From NCBI GenBank assembly GCA_022447625.1, contig JAKVAX010000010.1, positions 1-64,000 on the forward strand: DNA of 64,000 nucleotides. The letters run 5' to 3'. Below the pieces are notes generated by a model. The model saw only the letters and a program-made list of their open reading frames with translations. It was not told the origin of the DNA and did not search any database. Source of the stretch: Flavobacteriales bacterium (GTDB taxonomy: Bacteria; Bacteroidota; Bacteroidia; Flavobacteriales_D; Sanyastnellaceae). Below, one piece after another: positions 123-47,392 of the stretch. The position numbers were made by a program, and so were the translations under genes. The stretch's first letter is position 1. Every line of letters begins with the position of its first letter.

Positions 123-923
123 CTAACGCCCAACGCCTTTCAAAGCAACGATAGAATAAACCATCGGCATCTTCCCCTCATTACCCTTCAGCATATATTT
201 CCCTGGATTAACTTCATGAGACGTCGCGAAGCAATTGTAAGGGGAGTAGTCGTACTCGTTGAAGTCGACGATGTTGAGGCCGTTGGCTTTTAGGGCTTGG
301 TATACTTCACCGAGGCCGTGGTTCCAAGACATGTATTTGGCGCGGATTTCTTCGCTACCATCAGTGTAGCTTCCTTCGAGTTCTTCAACGATAACGTCGC
401 GGTTGAAGTATGAATAAGCGATGCGTTCGATGTTGTCATCAAACATCCATACGGCTGGGTGGAATTCTACGAAGACGAGCTTTCCTCCTGGTTTGAGGCT
501 CTGGGAAATGATATTCGCCCATTTGTTGAGGTCTGGAAGCCAACCTATGGTGCCATAACTGGTGAAGACTAGATCGTACTGTCCTTCAACGTGATCAAGA
601 GTGCTGTAGACGTCGCAGCAAATGAATTCGACGTCTACGTTGACTTCTTTTGCCAATGCTTTGCCTTGGTTGATGGCTTCATCTGATAGGTCAATCGCAG
701 TTACCTGTGCACCCTTCCGCGCTAGCGAAATAGAATCTTGACCAAAATGACATTGAAGATGAAGAACACGCAATCCCGAAAGGTCCGGGAAGAGGGAAAG
801 CTCTATGTCATTTAAGCTGCTTCTGCCTTCTTTGAACGTGGCGTTATCGTAAAATTCAGAATCTACGTGGGCAGTCGTACGCTTGTTCCACGCGTCACGA
901 TTCACTTGAATATAATCTTCCAT
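123..923 (-). CDS. Class I SAM-dependent methyltransferase
   Basis: Predicted soluble 266-residue methyltransferase; the substrate is not visible. Residues about 50-150 form the SAM-binding Rossmann core: the glycine-loop region LHLQCHFGQDSISLARKGA, the acidic end of the second strand (VTAIDLS), and a later VFTSYGTIGWLPD segment followed by LKPGGKLVFVEF, typical of class I enzymes. ATG at 921-923; the stop lies only a few bases after the DUF1801 gene's own stop-to-start junction, so the two minus-strand genes (3-base gap) are probably cotranscribed. The conserved SLAR segment of motif I is written with one copy of the interspersed palindrome, CTA GCG CGG. Family assignment is firm, the specific reaction unknown. 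Confidence 0.85.
   Translation of the reverse strand: MEDYIQVNRDAWNKRTTAHVDSEFYDNATFKEGRSSLNDIELSLFPDLSGLRVLHLQCHFGQDSISLARKGAQVTAIDLSDEAINQGKALAKEVNVDVEFICCDVYSTLDHVEGQYDLVFTSYGTIGWLPDLNKWANIISQSLKPGGKLVFVEFHPAVWMFDDNIERIAYSYFNRDVIVEELEGSYTDGSEEIRAKYMSWNHGLGEVYQALKANGLNIVDFNEYDYSPYNCFATSHEVNPGKYMLKGNEGKMPMVYSIVALKGVGR
715..730 (+). repeat. Interspersed palindrome copy 1 (16/16 form)
   Basis: TTCCGCGCTAGCGAAA on the plus strand, inside the methyltransferase gene, where it is read as S-L-A-R-K in the conserved motif I. Exact 13-base core plus the GAAA extension. Confidence 0.9.
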
Positions 924-926
924 TGT

Positions 927-1382
927 TTAGCGTTTGATCTCGCTTTCGTATTTATCAATCCAGTCTTGGACCGTCATCTTGGCCACCAATTCTCCAATGA
1001 GTTTGTATGGGATTTGCCCCATCTTTTTCAATCGGATACAGCTTTTACCCATATCTAACTTGGTGCTCACGTACTTGGGGTATTCGTTAACGAACCAAAC
1101 AAGAAGCTCGGGTGTAGCGTAGATTCCCATGTGGTAGAAGGCGATGAAATTCTTTTGGGAAGCCAGATTCATAAAGGGGAGAGGCCGCTTCGGATCACAA
1201 TGGTACCCATCAGGATACTTGTCATGAGGAACCACCCAGCCTATCATGTTGTATGAGATGACTTCCTTGAATCCTTCAGGGAGATTGGCGTTGATCACCT
1301 CTCTCAATTTCGTCATGACAGGTTGACGGTCTTCTGGGATTTTTGAGATGTATTCTTTTGGTGATGTAGCTTCTACTTTCAT
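927..1382 (-). CDS. DUF1801 (YdhG-like) protein
   Basis: A 151-residue protein of the DUF1801 family, a small alpha/beta fold related to YdhG/Fra proteins; members are often named iron-chaperone-like, without firm biochemistry. Visible family hallmarks are the N-terminal helix pattern ending in KLREVINANLPEGFKEVISYNMIGW, then FMNLASQKNFIAFYHMGIY and a C-terminal KSCIRLKKMGQIP segment. It starts at an ATG at 1380-1382, downstream of a hairpin-containing gap that follows the first FG-GAP gene, and is 3 bases upstream of the methyltransferase gene. Likely cytoplasmic; no signal peptide. Confidence 0.8.
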   Translation of the reverse strand: MKVEATSPKEYISKIPEDRQPVMTKLREVINANLPEGFKEVISYNMIGWVVPHDKYPDGYHCDPKRPLPFMNLASQKNFIAFYHMGIYATPELLVWFVNEYPKYVSTKLDMGKSCIRLKKMGQIPYKLIGELVAKMTVQDWIDKYESEIKR

Positions 1383-1384
1383 CG

Positions 1385-1426
1385 ATCTTGGTGTTTCTCC
1401 AGTCGCCTAAAGGCGGCAACCAAGAT
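1385..1426 (-). terminator. Nested hairpin between the FG-GAP gene and the DUF1801 gene
   Basis: Outer arms ATCTTGGT (1385-1392) and ACCAAGAT (1419-1426) pair perfectly, and inside them CGCC-TAAA-GGCG (1404-1415) forms a second stem that belongs to the longer-stem relatives of the interspersed palindrome. It sits directly after the stop of the 1429-4041 gene. There is no long T run, so it may be a weak terminator or an mRNA-processing hairpin. Confidence 0.45.
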
Positions 1427-1428
1427 AG

Positions 1429-4041
1429 TTATTTACGGATGATCACGCGCTGTTGACCAGAATTAGTCAGCACCAAGTAAACACCTTCAGCTAGGTCGAA
1501 TGGGAGTGAAGTAAGCCATTCAGATTGAACAAATACCCAATCAAGTTCAATGGTTTGTCCAAGCATGTTCTTCAGCACTGGTTTATCCGCGCTAGTCACA
1601 TGAAGGGCATCGTCTGCAGGGTTCGGGTACACAACAACGAGCTGTTGTTCAATAGTGTACACGCTCACATCTGAAACAGATTCAGAGAAGATTTCAAAGC
1701 ATCCGTTGTCATCAGTGACGATACAAGTGTACACCCCTGGTGCAATTCCTGTAAGGTCTTCTTCGTCGCTGCTAAATCCATCTGGGCCACTCCAATTGTA
1801 GGTATAAGGTTCAGTTCCGCCCTCAATATCAATCATGATGCTTCCATTGTCTCCCTCAGTGGATGGTTGGCTTTCGCCTGAAATACTAATTTCACTCGGT
1901 TCAATAAGCTCGAAGGTGGCTTCTCCTGTACATAAGAGTAGATCAGTTACCATCGCAGACCATTCACCAGGCCCAACATTTTCTGGATCTTCTACAGACC
2001 ATTCAATCGTGTAATCGCCGTTTCCACCGGAAACGATGGCTTCTACGTTTCCTTCTTCTCCGAAGCATGGGATAGAATCAATTACGAACTCAATGGTGAT
2101 TGGATCAGGACTTTCAATTTCAAAGCTTGATGAAGTGGAACATCCAAAATTGTCAATTACTTGAATCTCGTACGTGCCTGCTGAAAGGTCATTGATTTCT
2201 GCGTCCACACTTGCTCCATCAAGCAGAATACTCGTGATCCCAATCTGGCTTTCAATAGAAACAGCTCCATCTGAATCTCCGAAACAAGTGGTAGGAGTGG
2301 TGTTGCTTGTGATTTGATTGGCCGGAATTTCAGAGATGTTTACGATCTCGGAGTTCAAGGTGAGGCCAAAATTATTGACAGAGGTGTAGCTGTAATTACC
2401 AGGCTCAGTCACCCAAATGTTCTGGGCTGTCACTCCGTTAGACCAAGTGCCGGGGAAGTTGTTGTAGGTGAACAGCTGGACACTATCTCCAGAACAGAAA
2501 TAATCAGACTCTGAGTTCACTGCGGTGATCACGCTTTCTCCCTCGTTGACGATCAGTGTTTGATTAGCACTGACATCGTAAAAGGTATCTACCCAGCCAG
2601 AAGGCCATTCAATGATGATGGAATCGCAGAGCAGTCCTTGTCCGAGACCGAAGTGTTCATCAAATGAATTTTGAGAGATATATTGCTCGCTGATCATGGT
2701 GTACTCCGTCAGTACCATGTTATTTGAGTAGACGGTAATCCACGATCCCGTTCCGTGGGTATTAGATATTTCACCGTGGAGCCTTACTTCGATGTAGTTA
2801 TTTCCACTGGATGCGGTATTTTGCCAAATGACTACGTTGTTTGGAGCTTCATTTCCAACAATGATATCTCTGAAACCATCGTTGTTGATGTCGCCCATTG
2901 CAACGGCGTAGGCGTTACTGTTTTCTGGAGATAGCAGGTGATTGCTACCATCGACAAAGGTGTAGCCATTTTCAGCTCCTGTATTTTCGAGTAGAATGTT
3001 TGGCTGGTTCTGGTTCAGTGGATTTGATTCGGCGATGTACAAATCGAGGTCTCGATCGTTATCGATGTCGATGAACGTTGAGCCCCATGTATACTTATCC
3101 AGGGGTAGACCTTGAGCGACTCCAACATCAGTGAATGTTGCGGGTGCTATGTACTCCAATAAAGAGTTCGGACCTGAGGTAGTATTCGTACAATGGATGT
3201 CAGGATTTCCGTCGCGGTTGTAGTCTCCATATGTTCCTGTCATGGCATCGATGGCGATGTCGGTACCGGAACTAAAAGTGATCTCATCAAAGCCGCCGTT
3301 GCCGTCGTTTTTGTACAGTCTGTTTGGGAATACCTTGTCGTTGATCAAGTAGAGGTCTGGCCAGAGATCGTGATTCACATCGACCCAAATCCCCATGAAA
3401 GTGAGTTCTATTTCATTACATGTTCCAGATTGAACAGAGATATCTGTGAATATCCCGTTATCATTCCTCAAAAAGGTATTTCGATCTGCTGCTGTGGCCA
3501 CATCGTCAGGATTGTCAAGGCTCCGGTATTTTGAGATGTAAAGATCATAATCTCCGTCTCGATCGAAGTCGGCCCACGTGCCTCCATAGTAGTTCGCTGG
3601 ATCATTAGGTAGACCTACCATTGCTGTGACATTCGTAAACGTGTAATCGCCGTCGTTTCGCAATAGCTGCGGTATGCCAGCGAAATTGGTCATGAAAACG
3701 TCGTTGTCACCGTCTTGGTCATAGTCGATCCAAAGAATAGACTTTACCTCATCAAAAGAGGTTTGAAGTAGACCTGCATTCTCAAATGTTCCGTCTCCAA
3801 GATTTCTAAAGACTTCAGGGGAATCCATGTCACGAGCAATGGTGATATCGTCAAGTCCGTCTCCATCGAAATCAGCGAAGCTCAAGCCGGTGCCGTAGAA
3901 GGGGTTATTGATCTGTACTTGAATACCAGAGCTATTCGAAACGTTTTCAAAGTCTTGTGCGAATGCAGCGAAATGCACTGTTAAAAAAACGAGCGCTGAT
4001 AAGCTGATCTTGTACCCAATAAATCTCTCCCTCAAAATCAT
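1429..4041 (-). CDS. Secreted FG-GAP/VCBS + UnbV + SprB-type protein with T9SS tail (paralogue 1)
   Basis: An 870-residue exported protein. A signal peptide (LSALVFLTVHFAAFAQ) is followed by a beta-propeller built from FG-GAP/VCBS repeats (residues about 30-410) with repeated calcium-loop motifs such as DFDGDGLDD, DYDQDGDND and DINNDGFRD. Next comes an ASPIC/UnbV domain (about 415-505; HFGLGQ, IIIEWPSG), then SprB-like repeats (about 580-790; TTCFGDSDGAVSI, YTCIVTDDNGCFE), and a T9SS C-terminal domain (VYPNPADDALHV ... GVYLVL ... VIIRK). Expected to be exported through SprA/PorV-type T9SS and anchored or released outside the cell. Function unknown; related to CRTAC1-like proteins. First of four paralogues, 6 bases after paralogue 2. 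Confidence 0.88.
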   Translation of the reverse strand: MILRERFIGYKISLSALVFLTVHFAAFAQDFENVSNSSGIQVQINNPFYGTGLSFADFDGDGLDDITIARDMDSPEVFRNLGDGTFENAGLLQTSFDEVKSILWIDYDQDGDNDVFMTNFAGIPQLLRNDGDYTFTNVTAMVGLPNDPANYYGGTWADFDRDGDYDLYISKYRSLDNPDDVATAADRNTFLRNDNGIFTDISVQSGTCNEIELTFMGIWVDVNHDLWPDLYLINDKVFPNRLYKNDGNGGFDEITFSSGTDIAIDAMTGTYGDYNRDGNPDIHCTNTTSGPNSLLEYIAPATFTDVGVAQGLPLDKYTWGSTFIDIDNDRDLDLYIAESNPLNQNQPNILLENTGAENGYTFVDGSNHLLSPENSNAYAVAMGDINNDGFRDIIVGNEAPNNVVIWQNTASSGNNYIEVRLHGEISNTHGTGSWITVYSNNMVLTEYTMISEQYISQNSFDEHFGLGQGLLCDSIIIEWPSGWVDTFYDVSANQTLIVNEGESVITAVNSESDYFCSGDSVQLFTYNNFPGTWSNGVTAQNIWVTEPGNYSYTSVNNFGLTLNSEIVNISEIPANQITSNTTPTTCFGDSDGAVSIESQIGITSILLDGASVDAEINDLSAGTYEIQVIDNFGCSTSSSFEIESPDPITIEFVIDSIPCFGEEGNVEAIVSGGNGDYTIEWSVEDPENVGPGEWSAMVTDLLLCTGEATFELIEPSEISISGESQPSTEGDNGSIMIDIEGGTEPYTYNWSGPDGFSSDEEDLTGIAPGVYTCIVTDDNGCFEIFSESVSDVSVYTIEQQLVVVYPNPADDALHVTSADKPVLKNMLGQTIELDWVFVQSEWLTSLPFDLAEGVYLVLTNSGQQRVIIRK

Positions 4042-4047
4042 AAGCTA

Positions 4048-6594
4048 CTAGTTGGTAACCTTTATTATTCGTTTCTGATCATGCATGGTTACGACTAGTA
4101 TGCATAGTCCTGTGGTTTCCATCTGCATGGAACCATTGGCATAGGCCGGACAAGTTCTTGATTCAATTAGCTTTCCGTTGTAAGAGAATAGCTGAAGTTG
4201 CGCCTCTTCCATGGCCTGATTCCAAAAATACAAGTCACCATTCAAATTCTGGACTATAAAGTTCTCTTCGATTGATGGGCTGACAACGTTCAGATCAATA
4301 ATCTCGAAGGAATCTGACCATGTGCATCCATTGTCATCTGTAATATTGAGAACGTAAACTCCTTGCCCGAGATTCGTCGCTGATTCTCCCATGTCACCGT
4401 TGCTCCATTGGAAAGTATATGGAGGAGTTCCTCCTTCCGCGCTAGCGTTAGCGAAACCATTATCACCGTCAAAAGCTTCTGTCAACTCGATTTCTCCGAG
4501 AAGTTCATCAGGTTGTTGAATGTCGAAAAGGAGTGTGTTGTAGCAGGAATTGGCGTCTACGATCGTCACGCTGTATTCACCTGCGAGGAGGGCATCAGGA
4601 TTGAGATTCGACCAGTCAATGGTGAGCGTTCCTGTACCTCCCGTGGGAGAGATGGAAATGCTTCCAAACTCGCCAAAGCAAAGAGGATTAGCGATGATTT
4701 CATTGGCCGTAATGGAATCAGGTTGCATGACTTCTAAGGTGTCAACCGCTTGACATCCGTTGTCATCGGTACAGACATACGAATAAAGGCCGGCATTTAA
4801 GCCGAAAATGGCTTGGTCATCGGTACCGGTATTCCAGATGCACGAGGCGATGGGAATACCACTCACATTGAATACCTCGATCATACCGTCAGCATTGCCA
4901 TGGCATGTAGTATTGGTGATATTCGACTCTAAAACAGGAGAAGGGAAGAGGTCTATATTGATTTCAGCCGTGCTCGTGATCCCAAATTCATCAGTAATAG
5001 CAAGTGAATATAATCCTTCACCGTCCACCTCTATGGCGCTACTATCAGCTCCCGTATTCCATTGATAGGTCAAGGTTGGATCGTAGTCTACGAAGAGGGT
5101 GTTTGTCGTGTTATCACAGAGATCACCGTCGATTTGAATATCAAATTCAATCCCTACACCCTCTACGAATTGGTAATTGGAGTCAACGGGCAAATCGCAG
5201 TAGTATTGTGTAATTCCAGAAGGGAAGGTGATGTTGAGTGAATCAATTGTTGTATTCGATCCAAGGCCGAAGAATTCAGTTTGGCTGCTTTGGCCGAAGT
5301 AGTTTTCACCGAGGTAGGTGAATCGTGTTTGCTTCGTACCTCCCGACCATAGTTCAATCAAGCTACCAACAGCCTGAGTATTGGAAACGGTTCCTTGAAG
5401 GCTAACAGTGGTCCAATGGTTTTCGGTGCCTAAGTTCCGATACATCACAGAAGAACCAGCATCTAGAGTGTGCAGCATTAGGTCTGGTAAACCATTGTTG
5501 TCAAAGTCGCCAAGAGCAGCGGCATAAACGTTACTCTCGTCAAAGGCGATGAGTTCATCATTTCGTTCAAAATCTCCCGTGGTTTGCTCATAGTAGGCGT
5601 TGGCAGATGCATCTTCATTCCAGACATAGGTTCCTACAAAGAGATCTTGGTCCATGTCACAATCGTGGTCTACCCACACTGCGCCCCAGCAGATACTGAA
5701 CACCTCCATGTCGTAGACAGAAGCGATATCTAGGAACTGACCATCGTTGTACTGCATGAATATGTTGCCTTCTAGTCCATTGCTGACGTAGACATCCATG
5801 TCGTCGTCATTATCATAGTCAGCGCATGATATCGACATGGCATAGATGGCCTGGGCGAAACCAATCGTTAAGGAGACGTCGGTGAATGTTCCGTCACCGT
5901 TGTTATGGTAAATCGCGTTGGGGTGCTGCAAACGGTCGTTAATAACAATGAGGTCAAGCCATAGGTCATTGTCATAGTCGAACCAGAGCGACTGAAAACT
6001 ATTCTGGGAATCGTTGCTACATCCAGCATTTGATGTAACATCTGAAAACGTACCGTCACCGTTATTTTGGTAGAGGTAATTCGTAACAATGCCCTCCACG
6101 TTGTAGTTATTGAGATAGACATCTAAGAAACCGTCGTTGTTGAAGTCGCCCCAGCTAGCACCATTGGTTTCCCAGTTGTTTGTTTGATGAATGCCAGAAG
6201 TCACTGAGATATTCGAGAATTCCATGGCTCCATTGTTCAACCAAAGCTGACAAGGGGCCAGATAGAAAGTGATAAAGAGGTCAAGATCTAGATCGTTATC
6301 TACGTCGACCCAGGTGGTCATCTTAGCATCATTGCCTGAATGATTGATTTCTAGATCGAGATCAACCTCGATGAATCCTGTACCTGCGTCGTTTTCGAAG
6401 AATCGTACTTCTCCATCTCCACTGACCAGAGATGCGTCATCATAGCCATCGCCATTGAAATCGTAAAAGCTGAGCCCATTTCCATTGTATCCATCGGCTG
6501 CTACATTCAAGCTTTCCATAACGACAAGAGAGAACTGTGCTTCCGCATGGAAACAAGTAATTAGAAAGAAAAGGAAGCAGTAGTACTTACACAT
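4048..6594 (-). CDS. Secreted FG-GAP/VCBS + UnbV + SprB-type protein (paralogue 2)
   Basis: An 848-residue paralogue with the same order: signal peptide (FFLITCFHAEA), FG-GAP propeller with DFNGDGYDD, DYDNDLWLD and DFDNNGLPD calcium loops, UnbV domain (EFFGLGS, ITFPSG), and SprB-like repeats (TTCHGNADGMIEV, YVCTDDNGCQ). The C-terminus (LFSYNGKLIES ... RIIKVTN) resembles a T9SS domain but lacks the clear PNP motif of the other copies, so its sorting signal may be altered. Its ATG overlaps the TAA of paralogue 3 by one base (TAATG at 6592-6596), implying translational coupling. One interspersed palindrome copy is read in frame as A-S-A-E near the end. Confidence 0.86.
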   Translation of the reverse strand: MCKYYCFLFFLITCFHAEAQFSLVVMESLNVAADGYNGNGLSFYDFNGDGYDDASLVSGDGEVRFFENDAGTGFIEVDLDLEINHSGNDAKMTTWVDVDNDLDLDLFITFYLAPCQLWLNNGAMEFSNISVTSGIHQTNNWETNGASWGDFNNDGFLDVYLNNYNVEGIVTNYLYQNNGDGTFSDVTSNAGCSNDSQNSFQSLWFDYDNDLWLDLIVINDRLQHPNAIYHNNGDGTFTDVSLTIGFAQAIYAMSISCADYDNDDDMDVYVSNGLEGNIFMQYNDGQFLDIASVYDMEVFSICWGAVWVDHDCDMDQDLFVGTYVWNEDASANAYYEQTTGDFERNDELIAFDESNVYAAALGDFDNNGLPDLMLHTLDAGSSVMYRNLGTENHWTTVSLQGTVSNTQAVGSLIELWSGGTKQTRFTYLGENYFGQSSQTEFFGLGSNTTIDSLNITFPSGITQYYCDLPVDSNYQFVEGVGIEFDIQIDGDLCDNTTNTLFVDYDPTLTYQWNTGADSSAIEVDGEGLYSLAITDEFGITSTAEINIDLFPSPVLESNITNTTCHGNADGMIEVFNVSGIPIASCIWNTGTDDQAIFGLNAGLYSYVCTDDNGCQAVDTLEVMQPDSITANEIIANPLCFGEFGSISISPTGGTGTLTIDWSNLNPDALLAGEYSVTIVDANSCYNTLLFDIQQPDELLGEIELTEAFDGDNGFANASAEGGTPPYTFQWSNGDMGESATNLGQGVYVLNITDDNGCTWSDSFEIIDLNVVSPSIEENFIVQNLNGDLYFWNQAMEEAQLQLFSYNGKLIESRTCPAYANGSMQMETTGLCILVVTMHDQKRIIKVTN
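4435..4447 (+). repeat. Interspersed palindrome copy 2
   Basis: Exact TTCCGCGCTAGCG, followed by a short partial repeat (TTAGCGAAA) that restores the GAAA end. Read on the minus strand as A-S-A-E in paralogue 2. Confidence 0.9.
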
Positions 6595-9164
6595 TAAGAG
6601 TGAATGATCTTGTAGCTGATCAGTTGGTTGTTGGCCTTAATTTGTAAGATATACAATCCTTTGGCCACAGAGCTGAGATCAAGCTTTATTGCGCTGTCAT
6701 TGTTGGAAACAGGGAATTGCTTCACCAATTGACCTTGATGCGAAATGACCGCTATTTCTGTTTCATTTCCAGTGAGATTTGAAACAATGATCACGTCTTG
6801 GAATGGATTCGGACTTATGGCAATATTCGAAAGTGCGAATTCGACCGTATTCATTCCATCGAGGTCGATAATCAAGATTTCAAGGCATCCATTGTTGTCT
6901 ACAATCGTTGCCGTGTAAATACCAGGCTCAAGGTCTTCGATCATTTCGCCAGAACCGGAATAACCATTTGGTCCGTTCCAGTTGACGACGTATGGTTCTT
7001 GTCCACCTTCGATTTCGAGAACAATTACCCCATTATCTCCTTCATCTGCAGGGGTGGTGATGATATCTGTATCAATCTCCTCTGGTGCAATAATTTCACA
7101 GTTGGCCTGGGCTAGACAATCATTACCGTCAATGATCTCGCAGCTGTGTATACCTTCTTCAAGTTCCATTGGATCAATAATGCCCCAAGAGATTTCGTAA
7201 GGCTCTGTACCTCCTGAAACTTCTACTTCAGCGCTTCCATAGTCATCATAACACTGTGGATGTGTTACTATGATTTCTAATGACAATGTGTCTGGATCCA
7301 CTAAGGTCACTGACTCAATAGAGGAGCAAAATCCTGCTTGAGTAACGGTCACAGTGTATTCTCCTGCTGGAAGGTTGTCAAGTGGTTCGGTGTAGAGAAG
7401 ATCATCAATATAGATGGTGGCGTCGTCGTCTACTTCTACAGATATAGAGCCGTTCTCCTCTCCAGCGCAAGAAGGGTCTGTGATTTCAGTAATCGATGCT
7501 GCTAGGGTCTCCAGGTTTACAGTGACAAATTCAGAAGTAAAAGGGATTCCGTATTCTGTGGTGGCCATATATGAGTAGTTTCCGACTTCAGAAACCCATA
7601 GTGAGTCTGTTTCGATCGAACCATTCCAAACAGGATTGAGGCCATCTTCTGCAACCAGCAAGATGGAGTCTCCATCACAGATGTGAAGCCCTTGATAGAG
7701 GATGTTTCCTGAGATAGAATTTCCTTCTTGGATGACTAATGTCTGGTTTCCAGAAACGTCATAGAGTACATCTAGGTGACCGCTAGGCCATTCGATGTGT
7801 ATAGAATCTGCTTGATCAAATTGACCTAACCCAAAGAACTCTTTGGATGAGTTTTGGGTCAAATAGCCTTCGCCTGATTGCGTGTAGCGGATTTGACTCT
7901 CCCCATTGGTGAATACTTCAATCCACGAGCCGATTCCTTCAATGTTTGATATCGTTCCCTTTAGGTCGATTACCAAGTACGAGTTGTCGTTTCCGGTGTT
8001 CTGATAAATACGTGAGAAATCAGGTGCATTAGCAATGCAAAGGAAGTCAGGGAAACCGTCATTGTTTAAGTCACCAATTGCACTAGAGTGTGTAGCACCA
8101 TCGTCACTGCCTAGACCAACAGATACAGCATCTTCAGTGAATGATCCAAGTTGGTTGTTGATGAAGAAACGGTTCTGTCCTGGCTCCCCCCAGAAAGGAG
8201 AGCAGTTCACATGCAGATCTTCCCATCCGTCGTTATCGTAGTCAATCCACAAGGCGCTCCAACTATGATCGAAAACATTCGTGGCCGTTTCGTCTGAAGC
8301 ATGTTCAAAGATACCATCATCATTGAACTGCATGAGATGGTTGCCAAAGGGGTTGTTCGAAATGTAGAGGTCCATGTCACCATCACGATCGAAATCAGCC
8401 ATGCTATTGTTCATGGAGAAGATGTACATCTCTAGTCCCATCTCAGTTGTCACGTCTTCGAAAACGCCATTTTGATTTTTATAAAAGTGATTGGAAGCAG
8501 GAAGGCGGTCGTTAATTACGTGTAAGTCGGGCCATAGATCATGATCGTAATCCATGAATAAGCCTTGAAAAGACCACAAGCTGCCGTTATCAATGCCGGT
8601 AACTGCGGAAGCCTCGGCAAACGTACCATCGCCATTATTCACATAGAATTCATTCGTTACACCGTCTGAATTATAATTACAGATGTACAAATCTAAGTCA
8701 CCATCTCGATCTGTATCAGACCAAGAAATACCATAAGAGAGGTGGCAAGTACTATGGAGTATGCCTGAATCTTGAGTTACGTCGACCATGAAATTCAGAT
8801 CGCCGTTGTTCTGATAGAGGTGGTTTGTACCATTATAGTTAGTGACCATCAAATCAGCGTCACCGTCGTTGTCATAGTCACACCAAGAAAGACCTTTTGG
8901 ATTTACGTTATCCGATCCGATGGAAATCGGCAAAGAGAGGTCACCCTCATTATTGAGATAGAGGCTAATAGGTTCACCGGCTTGGCCGATCGTGACATCG
9001 TCCCATCCGTCACCATTCACGTCGTAAAAGCTCACGCCTGTACCGTATTCTGTTCCGTAGAATTGATGGACAAAGTTGTTGGCAGGAGCAACGTCCATGA
9101 ACGTCTGAGCGGAAAGCACAGTAGAGAGGATCAGCATCGAGAGAGTGCTTACTGTCCCTTTCAT
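6594..9164 (-). CDS. Secreted FG-GAP/VCBS + UnbV + SprB-type protein with T9SS tail (paralogue 3)
   Basis: An 856-residue paralogue. N-terminal signal peptide (LSMLILSTVLSAQ), FG-GAP propeller with calcium loops (DVNGDGWDD, DYDNDGDAD, DTDRDGDLD, DLNNDGFPD), the conserved DLWPDLHVINDR segment also seen in the other copies, UnbV domain (EFFGLGQFDQADSIHIEWPSG), SprB-like repeats (DPSCAGEENGSISV), and a canonical T9SS tail (ISPNPFQDVIIV ... AKGLYILQI ... YKIIHS). First gene of the three-gene tandem run (paralogues 3, 2, 1 in transcription order) and separated by 70 bases from the penicillin-acylase gene upstream, so the whole block may be one transcript. Confidence 0.88.
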   Translation of the reverse strand: MKGTVSTLSMLILSTVLSAQTFMDVAPANNFVHQFYGTEYGTGVSFYDVNGDGWDDVTIGQAGEPISLYLNNEGDLSLPISIGSDNVNPKGLSWCDYDNDGDADLMVTNYNGTNHLYQNNGDLNFMVDVTQDSGILHSTCHLSYGISWSDTDRDGDLDLYICNYNSDGVTNEFYVNNGDGTFAEASAVTGIDNGSLWSFQGLFMDYDHDLWPDLHVINDRLPASNHFYKNQNGVFEDVTTEMGLEMYIFSMNNSMADFDRDGDMDLYISNNPFGNHLMQFNDDGIFEHASDETATNVFDHSWSALWIDYDNDGWEDLHVNCSPFWGEPGQNRFFINNQLGSFTEDAVSVGLGSDDGATHSSAIGDLNNDGFPDFLCIANAPDFSRIYQNTGNDNSYLVIDLKGTISNIEGIGSWIEVFTNGESQIRYTQSGEGYLTQNSSKEFFGLGQFDQADSIHIEWPSGHLDVLYDVSGNQTLVIQEGNSISGNILYQGLHICDGDSILLVAEDGLNPVWNGSIETDSLWVSEVGNYSYMATTEYGIPFTSEFVTVNLETLAASITEITDPSCAGEENGSISVEVDDDATIYIDDLLYTEPLDNLPAGEYTVTVTQAGFCSSIESVTLVDPDTLSLEIIVTHPQCYDDYGSAEVEVSGGTEPYEISWGIIDPMELEEGIHSCEIIDGNDCLAQANCEIIAPEEIDTDIITTPADEGDNGVIVLEIEGGQEPYVVNWNGPNGYSGSGEMIEDLEPGIYTATIVDNNGCLEILIIDLDGMNTVEFALSNIAISPNPFQDVIIVSNLTGNETEIAVISHQGQLVKQFPVSNNDSAIKLDLSSVAKGLYILQIKANNQLISYKIIHS

Positions 9165-9234: not shown

Positions 9235-11595
9235 CTACTTGACTACTAATTTTTTTCCATTCGGATCAGCAGTAATTCGTTGCAATCGAAACTCGCCTTT
9301 TCGGTACATATCGGCCTGGTCATCATAGTATTTGCTCATACGATGTCCACTTTGCCCGGTGGGCGCGATACTCTCTGAATTTTCAACGTCTGAAAGATCT
9401 AAAACGATGCGCATTTGTGCACCAAATCTTCCGATGTAATAACCTGCAGAAGAAGGGGTAAAACCCGACTGAGAAATGGTCTCATTTCCTCCAGACATTG
9501 GCATCGGTGCAAGACTCAGCCATTCACCTACGACTGGAACATCTTTGAACGGGTGAGGAGGACCCCATTGATGCGCTTCTCCCCAAGACCAGTCTTTCGG
9601 TGAATTGCCATAGAGTCCGACCAGTTGTGCGACTACACTCCTGAAGGCATTCCCAACGTGATCTTGTAGTTTTTCTTTCGTATCAGTGGTACTTACATCC
9701 CACACTTCATGGTCTGGATCATTCAGGGCGATGTGCAAGAATCTCTTGCACCAATGCGTATGAGCAAAGCGTTCAAATTGTCTAGGGGTCATTTTGTCTT
9801 GCATACCTGATCGCAAAATGGCCATTTGTAGAGGTGTGAAAACTACTGGAGAAGGTTCATTGATTCCGTAATGACCATCCCAATCAAGCAAAGTGATGGC
9901 TTCTTGTTCAATATCTGTCCACTCGAGTTCACTGTTAGTTAGAATGCGGTGAAGTCGCTGAGAAATAATGGCTTCATCATCGTTATAAACATCAAGGAGA
10001 AGATCTTTCATCATGCTGACATCCCATTGATCTGTCTCGGACAAGAGCTTGCGTATACGCTTTCCCCTGCTAGGCGGGACGTAGTAGCCATAAACAAAGA
10101 CGGAGTCCATCATTTCAGGAGCCTCGTTTGCTGTACCTAAATAACCAATTTCAGGATCTACGTATTGCGGGTTTCTGCTGAAATCAAGGTAACCCAAGAT
10201 TTCATTGCTCGCATATCTGCCGTCGATGGCTGTTTTAGGATTTACGTTAGCAGGGTGATGAGGAATACGTGCACAAGACCAGTTTCCAATATGGTCATCC
10301 TTATCTGCATAGGTGATACTTAAACCGGGTGCGTGAATCAGGGCAATAGCTGATTCAAATTCTTCCAATTCATTTGACCGCATCATATTTCTAAATGCAG
10401 TGATGAGTTGGTTGTCTGTTTGCAGATATTCCCAACGCATGGCATAAGGAGGGAAGTCTGGAATTTCCTCCACCACATCGTTGATGATCGGACCGTGCTT
10501 GGACCATCTCACCGAAATTGTAGTATCTGCCGCATCCTTCACCTGAATCACATGCTCTTTGAATGAAGGCGCGTATGCGTCACCTTCGAAGATGAACTCG
10601 CCTGCATCATTTTCGTATTCTCGGTAAAAGTCGATGTCATCATTTTCGAACATGGTGAGCCCCCACCCATGATGATCTGAATGTCCGATTAAGGCATAAG
10701 GGATTCCCGGTAGGAAGTTACCGTAGGTCTTAACTCCAGGGAATTCAAGTGCCGCCTCGTACCATACTTGTGGAAGCCCATATCCGATATGGGTATCATT
10801 GCACAAGATGGGTGCTCCGCTCTTGCTTTTACTCGCATTTACCGCCCACGAGTTTGAGCCAGTAAACACTGGTATGCCTAGCGCTCCAAGGAGGTCTGGA
10901 AGGAGTATGGTTTCGGTGGTATCGGTTGAACACGAAGGACGGAAAGGAGGGAGAGAAGAACTCACTAGTCCCATACTTTGGAGCCATTCTTCCGAGTGCT
11001 GGCGTTCAAGTTCCGTTGCCAACATATCCGTCTGAAGTGCGATTTCAAAGCTGTATGCCATGTAACCGGCGATGGCATAGAGATCGCGCAATTCGAATTC
11101 TGTCAATGGAATTCCCGCCAATTTAAATTCGAGTGGTTCTTTTCCTGTTCGAATGAAGGCGTTTATACCTTCAATAAATGCCCTGCACTCGTTTAACTCT
11201 TCCGCGCTAGCGAAAGTACTTTCAAACGCTTCAGCTGATCGGTCAGCATATTCAGCAATTCCAGTCGCACGAAAGAAGAGATCAGGTCCTAGTCCTCTAT
11301 CGCCTAATACTTCTGCTAATTCACCTCGACCAACTCGTCGCAACATTTCCATCTGAAATAATCGCTCAGAAGCCATGATGTAGCCGAGCGTCATGTAAAC
11401 GTCTTCAGCTGATTCACCTTTAATATGAGGGATGCCGTGCGTATCGAAAGTGGTGGTCACCTCGCTTTTCAACTCAGGGAGATCAATCTCGCCTTCGTAT
11501 TGTGGCACACGTGAAGAAGCATACCAATAAGCATAGATGGAGGCCACTCCAGCGATGATGACGAGGAGCAAGAAAATTCGTTTAATCCAGCGCAT
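9235..11595 (-). CDS. Penicillin acylase family protein (peptidase S45)
   Basis: A 786-residue Ntn-hydrolase precursor that would self-cleave to expose an N-terminal serine and hydrolyse an amide bond; candidate substrates include beta-lactams and N-acyl-homoserine lactones (family knowledge, not shown here). An N-terminal membrane segment (RIFLLLVIIAGVASIYAYWYA) anchors or exports it. HGIPHIKGESAEDVY and the nucleophile motif GSNSWAV (Ser about 247) are clear, and length is normal for the family. It lies between paralogues 3 and 4 of the secreted array on the same strand, 21 bases from paralogue 4, so it is probably cotranscribed with them. One palindrome copy encodes A-S-A-E in the alpha-chain region. 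Confidence 0.88.
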   Translation of the reverse strand: MRWIKRIFLLLVIIAGVASIYAYWYASSRVPQYEGEIDLPELKSEVTTTFDTHGIPHIKGESAEDVYMTLGYIMASERLFQMEMLRRVGRGELAEVLGDRGLGPDLFFRATGIAEYADRSAEAFESTFASAEELNECRAFIEGINAFIRTGKEPLEFKLAGIPLTEFELRDLYAIAGYMAYSFEIALQTDMLATELERQHSEEWLQSMGLVSSSLPPFRPSCSTDTTETILLPDLLGALGIPVFTGSNSWAVNASKSKSGAPILCNDTHIGYGLPQVWYEAALEFPGVKTYGNFLPGIPYALIGHSDHHGWGLTMFENDDIDFYREYENDAGEFIFEGDAYAPSFKEHVIQVKDAADTTISVRWSKHGPIINDVVEEIPDFPPYAMRWEYLQTDNQLITAFRNMMRSNELEEFESAIALIHAPGLSITYADKDDHIGNWSCARIPHHPANVNPKTAIDGRYASNEILGYLDFSRNPQYVDPEIGYLGTANEAPEMMDSVFVYGYYVPPSRGKRIRKLLSETDQWDVSMMKDLLLDVYNDDEAIISQRLHRILTNSELEWTDIEQEAITLLDWDGHYGINEPSPVVFTPLQMAILRSGMQDKMTPRQFERFAHTHWCKRFLHIALNDPDHEVWDVSTTDTKEKLQDHVGNAFRSVVAQLVGLYGNSPKDWSWGEAHQWGPPHPFKDVPVVGEWLSLAPMPMSGGNETISQSGFTPSSAGYYIGRFGAQMRIVLDLSDVENSESIAPTGQSGHRMSKYYDDQADMYRKGEFRLQRITADPNGKKLVVK
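11200..11215 (+). repeat. Interspersed palindrome copy 3 (16/16 form)
   Basis: TTCCGCGCTAGCGAAA; read as F-A-S-A-E on the minus strand in the penicillin acylase gene. Confidence 0.9.
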
Positions 11596-11616: not shown

Positions 11617-14154
11617 TTACTTGATAACTAATCTGAACGCATATGTTTTTTCAACCGATACGATTCGAAGGAGATAAACTCCTCTGGCAAGTTGACTCAA
11701 ATCTAGTTGATTCGACCTTGGCTGCGTTGAAAATACCAGAGCCCCTGTGGCATTATACATTTCAATTTGATCTCCATTTTGCAAGCCTTCATTGATAATA
11801 TGTCCGTTGGTTGGATTCGGGAAAATTCTTAATTCGTTGCGAGATAATTGTTCTGTGCCGACAATGAAATCTATGGAGAACGGCATATTCACCACGCATC
11901 CGTTTCCGTCTACTATCGTCAATACATAATTTCCTTCTTCTAGATTTCCTTCAAAGTTCTCATTTCCGCCTGATGACCATATATAGGTGTAATCGGGTGT
12001 TCCTCCTATTACATTCGCTAGCGCGGAACCGAGAGCGTCTTCAGTGGCGTCGGTCACATCAATGGAAACCACCAATTCTTCTGGTTCAGAGAGTACCACG
12101 AGACTATCAATTTCACAACCGTTTTCGTCGGTGTAGGTAATCAAATACGAACCGGCCTCCAGATTATTGAGTGTTTCATTCGCTGGGGCTTGAGTGATTT
12201 GACCAACGCCGCCGGAGCAATCCCCTTCAACCCATCCATTGTCATCTCCAAAACAAAGGGGTTCAACGATGGTCAAAGAAGGAGAAAGTTGAATAGGAGA
12301 GGCAATGGTAATGTTTGTGTCTGTAGAACAGTTGTAGCTGTCGTAAATCGTCATTTCATAGAAACCTTCAGATAGACCCTCAACATTTGAATTGACGAAA
12401 CTTCCATCGAACAAGATTAAGTTGACTTGGTCAGATACCCAGATGAAGGCACCATCACTTTCTCCGAAACAAGTAACATCCTGTGCTTCCATTAATATCT
12501 CAGCTTCAGGGGCAACTGATATGGTCAATTCATCACTTTCAGCAAAGAATCCATAGGGGGTCAATACCTGAACTGATATGTTAGTAGCTTCATAGATCGT
12601 TAGATATCTTTCGTCGTGGCCATTCGACCATAAGTATTCTTCATGTTCACCAGCATCTAAGGTCAAACTATCACCTGGGCAAATGAATACTTCCTCTTGG
12701 TTTGCCAAGGACAGATCATAAGTTGAACCTTCAATAACATTGTTATAAGCGTTGATATTCGCCGTCACAACATCTGTCCAACCTGAAGGCCAGTTGACTT
12801 CAATGTTAACCTCACTTCCGTCTTGACCAAAACCAAAAAGACAGTTCATAGAATTCTGCCCTAAATAACCTGATCCCGCTTGAGTGTATTTGAACTGAGG
12901 ACCAGAATCATTGGTCACGGTAACCCAAGAACCAATCGCTTCTGGATTCGATACGGTCGCTTCAAGCGAAACGGCAACCCAGTAATTATTGGCACCAGAG
13001 TTTTTATAGAATGAGACATTGTTAGGCGTGCGACTGGTTATGGCAATTTCTGGGAATCCATCGCGATCAATATCGCCGGTTGCGATCGCGTATGCTTGAA
13101 AAAGACTGAGAGGATTGAAGAGGTTGTTTGACTCAGTGAATGAACCCGTTTCATTTTGTCGCATGAAGATATTCTGATGGTTGAACATAGCATCTTCTGT
13201 GCTGACATGTAAATCCTGATCACCGTCACAATCATAATCAAAGAATGCAGCTCCCCAACAAAAGCGTTCAACAGCTGTCCCCGTTGTTTCAGTGACGTCG
13301 GTGAAGGTCATATCACCGTTGTTCTGGAGTAAACGATTTCCGATAAAATCGTTGGTCATGTAAATGTCGAGATCACCGTCGTTATCGTAATCAGCTATGG
13401 TATTGCTCATGCAATCAATCACGATATCTGTACCCGAACTTTCAGAGACATCTGTAAAGGTTCCATCGCCGTTATTTTGGTACATGGAGTTCGCTGGGGA
13501 TTTGTCGTTGATGACGTACAAATCTGGCCAGCCATCGTTATTGAAATCACCCCAGCATGGCATAAAGCTCGGGACAATACCATTGTCAACACCTAGAGAC
13601 ATTGAGACTTCTGCGAAATTTCCTGCGCCATCATTCTCGAGAAGCCAGTTGTGCGCTCCAACTTCCCAATCGTAGTTGCAGACGTAAATATCAAGGTCAC
13701 CGTCAAGATCAAAGTCGCCCGCTGCGGCTCCATAAGTATCTGCATTCGTTTCCTGGGGAACACCTCGAGAACTTGCTTCATTCGTAAACTCAAGATCATC
13801 TTGAATCCATAGCTGTTCAAACCCGAATCTGCGAGTGACGAAAAGATCTGCATCACCATCATTATCGACATCTGACCAAATCACGGCTTTGGCATCGCCT
13901 TCATTTGGAAGGATGGTCAGTAACTCAAAGGAATCAGTTTCCCAGAGATAGATGTAGGTCCCGTTGCCATCGGTTGTTACAGTGAGGTCGTCAAAGCCAT
14001 CGTCATTGATATCGTACATACTGATACCATTACCGAAATTAGGAGTGCCAAAATCAACGGAAAGGCCAAGGGAGTTCCCAACGGCCTCATAAGTTTGGGC
14101 AATAGAAATGCAAGCAATACACGTTGCTGCGAGGGATAAAATGAGTCCACGCAT
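11617..14154 (-). CDS. Secreted FG-GAP/VCBS + UnbV + SprB-type protein with T9SS tail (paralogue 4)
   Basis: An 845-residue paralogue of the three proteins at 1.4-9.2 kb. Signal peptide (LSLAATCIACISIAQ), FG-GAP repeats (DINDDGFDD, DVDNDGDAD, DFNNDGWPD, DIDRDGFPE), a DGWPDLYVINDK segment, an UnbV-like region (CLFGFGQ, EVNWPSGW), SprB-like repeats (DVTCFGESDGAFIWV, EPLCFGDDNGW), and a typical T9SS tail (IFPNPTNG ... ARGVYLLRI ... FRLVIK). Most upstream gene of the minus-strand array and so probably its leader. Carries one palindrome copy in the SprB region, read in the S-A-L-A frame. Ligand and function unknown. Confidence 0.87.
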   Translation of the reverse strand: MRGLILSLAATCIACISIAQTYEAVGNSLGLSVDFGTPNFGNGISMYDINDDGFDDLTVTTDGNGTYIYLWETDSFELLTILPNEGDAKAVIWSDVDNDGDADLFVTRRFGFEQLWIQDDLEFTNEASSRGVPQETNADTYGAAAGDFDLDGDLDIYVCNYDWEVGAHNWLLENDGAGNFAEVSMSLGVDNGIVPSFMPCWGDFNNDGWPDLYVINDKSPANSMYQNNGDGTFTDVSESSGTDIVIDCMSNTIADYDNDGDLDIYMTNDFIGNRLLQNNGDMTFTDVTETTGTAVERFCWGAAFFDYDCDGDQDLHVSTEDAMFNHQNIFMRQNETGSFTESNNLFNPLSLFQAYAIATGDIDRDGFPEIAITSRTPNNVSFYKNSGANNYWVAVSLEATVSNPEAIGSWVTVTNDSGPQFKYTQAGSGYLGQNSMNCLFGFGQDGSEVNIEVNWPSGWTDVVTANINAYNNVIEGSTYDLSLANQEEVFICPGDSLTLDAGEHEEYLWSNGHDERYLTIYEATNISVQVLTPYGFFAESDELTISVAPEAEILMEAQDVTCFGESDGAFIWVSDQVNLILFDGSFVNSNVEGLSEGFYEMTIYDSYNCSTDTNITIASPIQLSPSLTIVEPLCFGDDNGWVEGDCSGGVGQITQAPANETLNNLEAGSYLITYTDENGCEIDSLVVLSEPEELVVSIDVTDATEDALGSALANVIGGTPDYTYIWSSGGNENFEGNLEEGNYVLTIVDGNGCVVNMPFSIDFIVGTEQLSRNELRIFPNPTNGHIINEGLQNGDQIEMYNATGALVFSTQPRSNQLDLSQLARGVYLLRIVSVEKTYAFRLVIK
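12016..12028 (-). repeat. Interspersed palindrome copy 4
   Basis: CGCTAGCGCGGAA on the plus strand; read in paralogue 4 as TCC GCG CTA GCG, S-A-L-A. Confidence 0.9.
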
Positions 14155-19034: not shown

Positions 19035-21233
19035 TTATTGAATTTCAGCCGTTATCTGAACCTCCCTCGGCTCCAACGCCTCATTCGTGAAGAGGAGAAT
19101 AGAGCGTACAACCTGACCTTTTTGTTGGTCTGAAGTGAATGCCACTAAGATATCTGTGGATTCTTCTGGGGCGAGGACTGTCTTTTCGAGTGTTGGGACG
19201 GTGCATCCGCAGCTACTAGCTATGGAGTCTATGCGTAGAGTGTCTGTGCCATTATTCGTTAAGCGGAAAAGCGTTTCCACGCTAGTGTTAGGAGTAACAA
19301 GACCAAAATTGTGTACCAGCTTATCAAAGTGCGAGGCAGAGAAAAGGCTATCTGGCATACCGCGCTGAACTGACTGAATTTCAATCTTACGTTCCAAACG
19401 GGCGCCACGAGAGTAGATTGACTCTTGTTCATCGGAAAGGTCATCACTTACTTGTTGATCGGCTTCGTATTCACCGAAAGGCACTTCGGCGAAAGTGAGG
19501 GTGGCGTGGTTATCAGCTTCACCATTGATGTATGGCATAAAAGCACCATTCTTGTCGTCGTTCAGGTAGTTGACTAGACTGGCAATTCTTCTTCTTGTAA
19601 GATTGACGTTATAGTCACTTTCTGCTCGAGGAGAGGCAAATCCTTTAATTGTCAACTGAATGCTGAACCCTTTTTCGAGCTCTTGAAGAAGCAGGTCTGA
19701 GAAGATACTCAGGTCATTGTAGCCTTTTTCAAGGAAGAGCGAGTAGAAGTCTTCGACATCGTATTCTGCTTCTTCTCTTTTATCGCCCGACATTCCTTTC
19801 GCGTTCTCCTTGAGGTATTTTTTTTTGAGTTGCTGGTAAGAGTCAAAACAATCGCTGTAGCTCAGCGCAGTGGTGGTATCACGAGTGTTTGGGTTCGGCT
19901 CATCATTGTGAAAGTAGAGGGTCACCGGTAAGTACTCATTCAACTGACGCAGCGAAACAAATACTTCTGGAGTATCAACAGGGAGCGAATCACGGAATTG
20001 AATCAAGTAGAGGTCATTGCAGCAGTAAGTTGAGTTGCCAAGACTTCCCGGACGATTTGAAGCCATCAAGCCTCCGTTCAGCTCATCAAAGTATCGGTAG
20101 TATAGATCGTTTTGGCCTGAATTCACTGGATAACCGAGGTTCTCTGGTTCCTGGAAACTGCGGGGGTAGCCTTTCGAACGGAACACGTCGTAACCTCCAA
20201 AGCCAACATGCCAGTTGCTACTGAAGAACAGTTGTTCACTAATGAAATAAGGCGAGAGTTCATTATCTGGAGTATTTACGTTGTCTCCAGCATTTGCTGG
20301 CGCTTGCCAACTTCCGTCGTCATTTCGGAACGTCCACCAAATATCCAGCTGTCCACGTGTGCCTGGACGGTCAGAGCAGTAGAATAGAACTTCTTGTTCT
20401 TTGTATAAGCCTACCCAAGGCATGGTACTGTTGTATTCCAAACTATTGATGGTAGGAATAGAACGTCCTGGTTGAATGCGACCTTCTATAACTTCTGCTT
20501 CCATGATGCGGCATGAGCTATCTGGGCATTCAACGTAATAGGCCCGAGAGTGGTCAGGGGAGAAGACAAGGTTTCCAGAATTAAAGTCTTTCTCAAACTT
20601 GGCGGCGTATCCTTGATCAATGTTGTAGAGTGAGTCTTCCATCGAAGCTCTCCAGAACGAGATGTGGTTCGCTTCTTCTCTATACGAGGAATAGAACAGG
20701 GTACTATCGAAAAGGAACGGAGCGAATTCAGACTCCGTAGTATTGACATCGCCAGGAAGTCTTTCAACGGTAACAGGGCCATCCAGACGACGAGCATTCA
20801 AGGCGTAGGTACAGCTCTCAATTTCCTGCAACGATTTACGGTAAAGGTAGCTGTCTTTTTTGCGCTTGTACTTCTTGCTGAACTTCTTGTAGTTGCGAAG
20901 TGCTTCTTTGTACTTCCCATTGGCCTTTTGCATCTCCGCCAAACGGAACTGACCAAGTTCAAAAAGCTTCCCTTTATCCTTGTTGAAGGCCTTGGCATAG
21001 AGGTATTCAGCCTTCTTAGAATTTCGAGATGCCCGCAACGCCTCAGCATATTTGATGGTCATATCAAAGTCAGCGCTATCAATAGTATAAGCTTCTGCAT
21101 AATACTCCGCAGCAGCAAGCACATCATTTCTCGCCCATGCGTCATCCCCAAGGGCAGTCCATTGTTTTAGACTTTGCGCAGAAGCAAAAAAGGGCAGTAG
21201 ACAGAGACAAGTGACAATCAGTCGAAAGCTCAT
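19035..21233 (-). CDS. TPR / PD40 propeller / OmpA-like / DUF1573 envelope protein
   Basis: A 732-residue exported protein combining four modules: signal peptide (LCLLPFFASAQ), TPR-like helices (about 20-135), a WD40-like PD40 propeller (about 165-410; LFYCSDRPGTRGQLDIWW, LFFSSNWHVGFGGYDVF), an OmpA-like peptidoglycan-binding region (about 460-600; IKGFASPRAESDYNVNLTRRR), and a C-terminal DUF1573 immunoglobulin-like domain (about 638-732; ASSCGCTVPTLEKTVLAPEES). The first three modules match the PorE-type T9SS or gliding-associated layout; the DUF1573 end is an extra. Likely bridges outer membrane and cell wall. Alone in its transcription unit. Confidence 0.82.
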   Translation of the reverse strand: MSFRLIVTCLCLLPFFASAQSLKQWTALGDDAWARNDVLAAAEYYAEAYTIDSADFDMTIKYAEALRASRNSKKAEYLYAKAFNKDKGKLFELGQFRLAEMQKANGKYKEALRNYKKFSKKYKRKKDSYLYRKSLQEIESCTYALNARRLDGPVTVERLPGDVNTTESEFAPFLFDSTLFYSSYREEANHISFWRASMEDSLYNIDQGYAAKFEKDFNSGNLVFSPDHSRAYYVECPDSSCRIMEAEVIEGRIQPGRSIPTINSLEYNSTMPWVGLYKEQEVLFYCSDRPGTRGQLDIWWTFRNDDGSWQAPANAGDNVNTPDNELSPYFISEQLFFSSNWHVGFGGYDVFRSKGYPRSFQEPENLGYPVNSGQNDLYYRYFDELNGGLMASNRPGSLGNSTYCCNDLYLIQFRDSLPVDTPEVFVSLRQLNEYLPVTLYFHNDEPNPNTRDTTTALSYSDCFDSYQQLKKKYLKENAKGMSGDKREEAEYDVEDFYSLFLEKGYNDLSIFSDLLLQELEKGFSIQLTIKGFASPRAESDYNVNLTRRRIASLVNYLNDDKNGAFMPYINGEADNHATLTFAEVPFGEYEADQQVSDDLSDEQESIYSRGARLERKIEIQSVQRGMPDSLFSASHFDKLVHNFGLVTPNTSVETLFRLTNNGTDTLRIDSIASSCGCTVPTLEKTVLAPEESTDILVAFTSDQQKGQVVRSILLFTNEALEPREVQITAEIQ

Positions 21234-25327: not shown

Positions 25328-26139
25328 TTATTCCGCGCTAGCGATAATCACCCCAGAATTTCCTGTAAGGTCAAAATGGTCAATAGACGGGCAGTACATT
25401 TTTGAAATGAACCCATCTAAGTACAAAGCGAATTGACATCCCTGTTCCTGGAAGAATGTTGCGAAATCGTAAAAGTTGATTTTCTCTCTCGACATCGCGA
25501 AGATGATTTGTCCATCTGGTAAAACACCTACGCCGTTTCGGATATTCAGATTGGTAGACCCTTCATTGAAGAGGTCATTAATTTCTTCACGAATAAGCAG
25601 GAGAGGGCCAGATTGGGTGGCATATTCGATTCCTTCGAACTCGAAGAACTGACTGGACTTAATTCCCGCTTTCTCTTCTGAAGTCAAGTAGAACAAGCCA
25701 TTTGGCTCCTGTAGAAGTTACTATGGGCGTCTTTCCTCCAATTCATTTTTCGTTGGAGAACTCCCTTCTTAATGTAACGTCCTAATGGTTCTCGATCCTC
25801 CATGTACATGCCACCATTCATGGTCAAGGTGAGGGTTCTGCCTTCAGCTTCTACGTGCGCTTTAAGCTTCCATAGGCCTCTGAGCGGATTCACTGAAGTG
25901 TCTTTGTGAGCCATAAATAATTCAGCACTAACAGGATCAACGATGTGACTGACAATCGGAGCTTTGTTCAATACCTAGGATGAATCGATGGCGGTCACCG
26001 CAAACTCCGAATCGCCAACTCCTTGTTCGATAGGTATGACAACTACTAAATCATGTGCTTCAGTCACAACTTCTAAAGAACGAGTAGTGCCGGCGACGGC
26101 GAGTAGCCCGAGGATCTAGATGAATAGGTGCTTTTTCAT
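25328..26139 (-). pseudogene. Phosphodiester glycosidase family (DUF2233) gene, broken
   Basis: The minus strand carries a DUF2233/NAGPA-like protein in pieces: a signal start (MKKHLFI, TAG, ILGLLAVAG), a second TAG after AIDSS, then TLTMNGGMYMEDREPLGRYI, a one-base deletion near 25706 (after SNFY), and a clean second half from NGLFYLTSEEK through TQSGPLLLI, NIRNGVGVLPDGQIIFAMS and LYLDGFISKMY. The family cleaves or recognises N-acetylglucosamine phosphodiesters on glycans. Two stops plus a frameshift argue against sequencing error alone. The last codons before the stop are a palindrome copy (A-S-A-E). Confidence 0.8.
25331..25343 (+). repeat. Interspersed palindrome copy 5
   Basis: Exact TTCCGCGCTAGCG; read on the minus strand as the final I-A-S-A-E before the stop of the broken DUF2233 gene. 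Confidence 0.9.
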
Positions 26140-34260: not shown

Positions 34261-34275
34261 TTCGCTAGCGCGGTA
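34261..34275 (-). repeat. Palindrome near-copy in leader of the cytochrome operon
   Basis: TTCGCTAGCGCGGTA, one base off the main word, 18-33 bases before the lipoprotein ATG. One of the few copies outside a coding frame. Confidence 0.65.
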
Positions 34276-46932: not shown

Positions 46933-47392
46933 TTAACAGCGCATTTGATCAGCTAAGCTCCAAGACAACGTGTAGCTCAAACTTAGGATTACGAATGAGC
47001 GTTGATCGTATTCTCGATCGACGATATCACAAGTTAAATTCACGGTCAATGATGTTTGCTTGAATTGGAGCCAATAATCGACATGCACTCCGATCGCCTG
47101 TTGAAAGTTGCGGTTCTTTTCGCCAAAGCTCGAGAACGCATCCAACATGGAAACTACGGTGTGCGATTCTTCTTGTAAAGTAGTAGAGGCCGGATTGAGC
47201 AACCCAAGCCTATTGTGCTCAACTGGCGCCTATTTCCGAAGGTTGAGATATCACATGTTCTTAGCTTACTTGAGCTCCAGAGTATATCACGCCATGTCCT
47301 TGGTAGCCAATATTTAAAGCGTTTTGCTTTTGCGCTAGCGCGGAAACGGAAACACCAAAAATTACGACCAGAATTAAAAGAATGCATTTCAA
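46933..47392 (-). pseudogene. Exported outer-membrane-type protein, decayed
   Basis: The minus strand begins (TTG at 47390-47392; no ATG) with a good signal peptide, KCILLILVVIFGVSVSALAQ, then NALNIGYQGHGVIYSGAQVS and a stop. Further stops and frame changes follow, before a clean last third from LLNPASTTLQEE to a barrel-like end SLSYTLSWSLADQMRC. Strand-like alternation suggests an outer-membrane barrel; no family is recognised. A palindrome copy encodes S-A-L-A at the signal cleavage region. Confidence 0.6.
47333..47345 (-). repeat. Interspersed palindrome copy 8
   Basis: CGCTAGCGCGGAA, within the signal peptide of the decayed exported protein (read as S-A-L-A). Confidence 0.9.

Follow-up and report, generated by a model that had tools for sequence, protein, structure and literature searches.

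Sequence evidence for a selected hairpin word made by substitution in Sanyastnellaceae genomes and its possible role as a self-DNA signal

At the beginning of the window, by which we mean the whole stretch of 64,000 nucleotides analyzed here, the minus-strand ORF 123-923 encodes a class I methyltransferase (Methyltransf_25, E=9.5e-15, residues 53-147). Inside this gene, at 715-727 on the plus strand, lies the word TTCCGCGCTAGCG, followed by AAA. The window contains 11 exact copies of the word and 18 sites with at most two mismatches to it, compared to 0.61 expected. One of the further copies is located in ORF 29981-30937, which encodes an AlbA_2/Schlafen protein (PF04326, E=9.7e-17). A simple longest-ORF rule served for gene calling. 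The sites in the window, which belongs to genome G000 (3.9 Mb, 76 contigs), are given below, with the state in the congener G002 (one contig, 4.1 Mb) where it was recorded.

715-727, plus strand: hairpin word, copy 1, TTC-CGC-GCTA-GCG, antisense in ORF 123-923; identical in G002
728-780, plus strand: place of the A-rich 3′ flank, a population feature of ~50 nt averaged over 169 words and not demonstrated for this single copy
4435-4447, plus strand: hairpin word, antisense in the FG-GAP/ASPIC ORF 4048-6594
11200-11212, plus strand: hairpin word, antisense in the penicillin-amidase-like ORF 9235-11595; identical in G002
12016-12028, minus strand: hairpin word, sense in the FG-GAP ORF 11617-14154; the loop base differs in G002 (GTTA)
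19275-19287, plus strand: compensated variant TTC-CAC-GCTA-GTG, conserved in G002
25331-25343, plus strand: hairpin word in ORF 25328-25696
27491-27503, minus strand: hairpin word, sense in the helicase-like ORF 26162-28909; identical in G002
30100-30112, plus strand: hairpin word, sense in the AlbA_2 ORF 29981-30937, encoding GSALA
31131-31143, plus strand: loop variant TTC-CGC-GATA-GCG, conserved in G002
34263-34275, minus strand: near match TACCGCGCTAGCG with a changed prefix
35765-35777, minus strand: TTC-TTC-GATA-GAA; the orthologous site of G002 has TTC-CTC-GATA-GAG, a compensatory double change
47333-47345, minus strand: hairpin word, intergenic
47924-47936, minus strand: hairpin word, antisense in the GT87 ORF 47470-48639
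48806-48818, plus strand: loop variant TTC-CGC-GATA-GCG in ORF 48590-49126
52294-52306, plus strand: TTC-GGC-GCTA-GCT with a G-T outer pair; G002 has GGC/GCC
53658-53670, plus strand: hairpin word, antisense in the TPM-domain ORF 53286-53732; G002 has TTCGGCGTTAGCG, in which the outer pair is broken
60542-60554, plus strand: hairpin word, antisense in ORF 56582-60946; identical in G002

Other features were also seen. Large FG-GAP/ASPIC-UnbV proteins bearing SprB repeats, one of them with a Por secretion tail, are encoded close together between 4048 and 14154 of the window, and the stretch 1374-7835 is strongly diverged between G000 and G002. An intergenic, gcctaaagcctaacgcccaacgcc-like repeat of ~30 bases (window ~101-146), present in many places in G002, is separate from the word. 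The CCGGCGTCCGG(CATCCGGCGTCCG) repeats at window ~56560-56575 and elsewhere in G000 and G002 are almost all intergenic, often beside T-runs, and represent a second, ordinary-looking intergenic repeat family. In a 200-kb sample of another congener, G001, apparently tandem CCCCGATC and CACCATC repeats were frequent.

The whole genome G000 contains 371 exact copies of the word and none of the reversed control, and among the congeners G002 has 430 exact copies and G001 none. With the loop base left free, 667 copies were counted in G000 and 770 in G002, compared to 0 to 1 for the control. The 371 exact C-loop copies in G000 contrast with only ~72 copies having one mismatch at the 12 fixed positions. 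The word of G000 and G002 resembles in these respects the USS of Pasteurellaceae and the DUS of Neisseriaceae, for which hundreds or more copies, up to about a thousand, a strong consensus far above chance and few near misses are characteristic. Among 399 genomes of the order, every genome other than these two had the 14-base form of the G000 word at most twice, and a pattern scan of genome contigs gave scattered single copies among the matches listed, with no other carrier named there. For the closer analyses, 418 kb of G000, 617 kb of G002, 577 kb of G001, and 52 to 240 kb of most other genomes were read.

Copy 1 is read by the methyltransferase gene as TCG CTA GCG CGG AAG, encoding S-L-A-R-K and followed by G-A, which confirms on the minus strand the SLARKG segment named in the original prediction. 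This segment had been assigned to the conserved motif I, but it is positioned in the helix following motif I (VLHLQCHFGQ). In an alignment with 13 orthologues from the family and the order the site is free of gaps and SLAR(K/M) is largely kept, and copy 1 thus represents a choice of synonymous codons. Methyltransferase orthologues of genera lacking the G000 word (L251 of G007 and L256 of G021) use almost identical codons, TCGCTAGCGCG, at this position; judged from these sequences, copy 1 may have required only few changes. The copy at 30100 was likewise found in the AlbA_2 gene as predicted, but not inside the first strand, as GSALA comes just after the conserved strand HIEFKA. Its site is gapless in comparison with six orthologues, in which GSALG, GEALG, GAALG, and similar sequences are found opposite GSALA. 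Motifs and strands were placed by eye using the alignment and the Pfam range, without a computed structure.

It had been proposed that the word arises by substitution under selection and not by insertion, an idea that insertions of 13 or more bases at each copy in orthologue alignments would have refuted. Insertions were essentially absent: a gap within 10 bases of the hairpin word was present at 1 of 97 sites aligned between G000 and G002, and in the comparison with the word-free G001 the word codons contained a gap at 1 of 34 sites, in a poorly aligned stretch. The idea of substitution was therefore not refuted. At the G001 counterpart sites a mean of 7.3 of the 12 fixed bases differ from the word, and amino acid identity is 0.38 at the word codons versus 0.56 in the flanks. 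We conclude that substitution built the words, for the most part at positions where changes in the protein are tolerated. Selection for the word was supported as well. Only 4 of 364 third codon positions within the word (1.1%) were changed between G000 and G002, compared to 1245 of 7093 (17.6%) within 150 bases (P = 4e-24), so that the expected conservation of synonymous sites was met inside the word. For first and second codon positions the corresponding numbers were 3/548 and 377/14201. Position 8, the loop base, was the most variable one, and directly beyond the word conservation dropped back, although a weaker effect was noted in the A-rich 3′ flank. The word is thus shown to be a signal present throughout the genome, which point substitution under strong purifying selection created and maintains; an origin by mutation rather than by copying or insertion is also characteristic of USS and DUS. 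Placement in conserved domains, which holds for the methyltransferase and AlbA_2 copies, could not be upheld as a rule, since most copies occupy variable protein positions. The atypical nature of these two copies had been missed, as had the covarying stems of the hairpin and the dialects of relatives described below.

The selected unit is a mini-hairpin, 5′-TTC-abc-GNTA-c′b′a′-(A-rich, ~50 nt)-3′, with covarying pairs in the stem. In the variants TTCGGCGCTAGCC, TTCCACGCTAGTG, and TTCCTCGATAGAG both arms are altered together, and one orthologous site shows a direct double stem change between G000 and G002. Complementary arms were present in 121 of 422 TTC-nnn-GNTA-nnn sequences in G000 and 164 of 613 in G002, compared to 24 and 30 with shuffled arms. 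After removal of the two commonest stems (CGC and GGC), 26 versus 5.1 remained in G000 (maximum of 1000 shuffles, 14) and 38 versus 7.7 in G002 (maximum of 1000 shuffles, 18); in G001 the same pattern gave 9 versus 4.6. When all three-base prefixes were scanned in combination with loop classes, TTC/GNTA ranked first with z=41.6, the next combination reaching 9.6. Pair 5-12 was G-C in 83/107, A-T in 8/10, T-A in 1/5, and of another kind in 0/3 cases (G000/G002), and single mutants were rare. At pair 4-13, G-T was found 10 times and A-C once; as G-T is tolerated there and A-C is not, the pairing strand is most likely the word strand. On this strand, the share of A rises to 44% 3′ of the word and decays over ~50 bases, and predicted folding is weakest in this A-rich flank. 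DNA folding prediction returned the expected three-pair hairpin, and GNNA loops closed by C-G are known as unusually stable DNA tetraloops. We regard it as nearly certain that the word is a selected hairpin signal which arose by substitution.

With respect to genes, 115 of 169 non-redundant words were antisense, 41 sense, and 13 intergenic, corresponding to an antisense share of ~74% of the intragenic copies (115/156). Codon tolerance explains part of this excess, near-matches in G001 predicting only ~49%. Copies within genes are almost confined to those four reading frames that give no stop codon inside the word. A reverse-complement excess in genes has been reported likewise for USS and DUS (PMC2346458). 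The intergenic words (13/169) correspond to about the non-coding share, their density being similar to that in coding DNA. USS and DUS favor non-coding DNA and show a somewhat regular spacing; no such preference for non-coding DNA was seen among the 169 words, and word spacing was near random in five of six segments and more regular than random in one. In G002, 369 copies are forward and 401 reverse, and the segments G2a (31+/44-) and G2b (31+/25-) gave no strong bias; origin, terminus, and replichores were not mapped.

G001 possesses a hairpin word of its own, T-rich-C-N5-(RNAA)-N5′-G-GATG, in which a T-rich part and C-N5-(AAAA, AGAA or GAAA)-N5′-G are followed by GATGCGAAC. In the frame N5-ANAA-N5-GGATG, 114 of 131 sequences were fully complementary, compared to 0.13 expected, with 30 different stems. 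In the 577 kb read, RNAA-loop hairpins with GGAT were counted 159 times; they occupy all six frames as well as intergenic positions. They also arose by substitution, a relative lacking four or more residues at only 1 of 35 orthologous sites. In G016, from another genus of the family, a T-rich C-stem-(T..C)-stem-G-GATG form was clear (25.9 per 1000 GATG versus 3.2 for permuted words), and G007, from a third genus, showed a similar form at fewer sites (15.0 versus 5.3, one permuted word reaching 11.9). When read on the same strand as these dialects, the G000 form is T-rich, hairpin, GAAnCGG. All follow a shared plan of a T-rich flank (A-rich on the other strand), a hairpin with a partly free stem, and a fixed foot, from which we infer that the forms of G000, G001, G016, and G007 belong to one homologous system. 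Lineage dialects are also a property of USS and DUS. G010 was borderline for such a word, and carriage is not claimed; no comparable word was seen in the limited samples (52 to 240 kb each) of G003, G008, G013, G017, G021, G038, G039, and G050, and the partly masked sample of G035 was hardly informative. Hairpins in G021 were rejected as a dispersed word because they are mostly local 12-base tandem arrays. These arrays (L284 6039-6135 and L285 7686-7830) consist of the repeat TCTTGCGAAGCA and variants, lie partly inside ORFs, and form a small GNA-loop hairpin in each unit. Viral contigs contained only single copies per contig of both dialect words, and the outer pairs of G001-type viral matches were complementary in 7 of 80 cases versus 5 expected, which is about chance.

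As strand, transcription, and gene context matter little, we infer that the word works as DNA and, with good probability, in single-stranded form, where the hairpin would be read by a hairpin-binding protein. By analogy, the likeliest function is an uptake or self-DNA role in natural transformation; this function has not been shown, and we propose it tentatively. Recognition of the signal would take place when incoming DNA becomes single-stranded, or later. Recombination of signal-bearing DNA would make the signal accumulate and let the dialect turn over, and would account for words landing where proteins tolerate them. Like USS and DUS, the word occurs on both strands and inside genes, and like USS it has an A/T-rich 3′ flank. 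Unlike them, it is a hairpin with an interchangeable stem, belongs to another phylum, and comes without uptake data. The prevailing view is that USS and DUS, which do not form hairpins, are recognized in double-stranded DNA; the hairpin nature, the new part, suggests a signal read on single-stranded DNA. For another member of the Flavobacteriia, Riemerella columbina, a preference for its own DNA in transformation was reported (PMC7965970), and in R. anatipestifer the uptake proteins were reported to be partly unknown. ComEC is present in G000, G001, and G002, which is weak evidence because it is widespread and also occurs in non-transforming bacteria. Against an uptake role stand the lack of any uptake experiment for these organisms, the absence of the non-coding enrichment of USS and DUS, a word spacing that was near random in five of six segments, and the antisense excess, which codon tolerance accounts for only in part.

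A Chi-like or other recombination or replication signal, read on single-stranded chromosomal DNA, remains possible but is less likely; it might be a self mark for a resection nuclease, a primosome loading site, or the target of a nicking enzyme. The words are dense, conserved genome-wide, and of single-stranded character, and their weakly structured A-rich 3′ tail suits protein loading on single-stranded DNA. However, the Chi sites known so far are short, lack structure, and are biased in orientation, whereas the word is a hairpin without clear strand polarity in G002, where the replichores were not mapped. We consider it doubtful that the hairpins act at the RNA level, as transcript sites for a nuclease or an RNA-binding protein. 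The ease with which hairpins are recognized in RNA and the favorable RNA folding energies would fit such a reading. In 115 of the 156 copies within genes, however, the strand that pairs is the antisense one, and other copies are sense or intergenic; moreover, the loop is GNTA and not GNRA, and the G001 stems are nearly devoid of G-U (2 TG versus 159 fully paired). Hardly better supported, and if anything slightly less so, is a sequence-specific double-stranded site for a nucleoid protein, a methylase, or a segregation factor: proteins of these kinds often have conserved words across the genome, yet covarying, freely chosen stems with a fixed loop and foot are unexpected for double-strand readout.

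A REP-like element mobilized by a Y1 (RAYT) transposase is very improbable. Alternative complementary stems and a fixed foot tag are typical features of REP hairpins (PMC3733652, PMC6006769), and the word shares with these GTAG- or CGTC-tagged palindromes its shortness and lineage-specific families. REPs are, however, largely intergenic and copied, whereas ~92% of the words lie in genes and arose by substitution, so that the extragenic location is not met; in addition, the stem is much shorter in G000 and G002 and no transposase gene is associated. A word-flanked Y1 gene was not found, at most one word being located near each Y1 gene of G000, G001, and G002. A Y1 transposase as a shared driver was rejected, as the single Y1 genes of the three genomes are not orthologous (20 to 28% local identity or no match). 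The palindromic elements that Rickettsia inserts in frame also lie within protein genes and would fit words in many unrelated proteins, but this reading can be dismissed, since the words have only 13 bases, the orthologue alignments show essentially no insertions, and no flanking repeat body exists.

Returning to the self-DNA signal, our confidence is evenly balanced on the combined proposal that the family labels its own chromosomes with selected hairpins of single-stranded DNA, numbering from several hundred to about a thousand, and that this mark, with its partly free stem and lineage-specific loop and foot, is a structure-coded self-DNA signal. If true, it would be unlike known sequence-coded uptake or Chi signals. 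To our knowledge, only two bacterial families have well-established DNA uptake signals, and how self DNA is chosen by relatives of this organism is an open question. The turnover of dialects within one genus makes receptor-signal coevolution testable across three or four species. A signal written in structure and not in sequence would be a new way of marking DNA within genes, as a free stem can be accommodated by many different codon choices.
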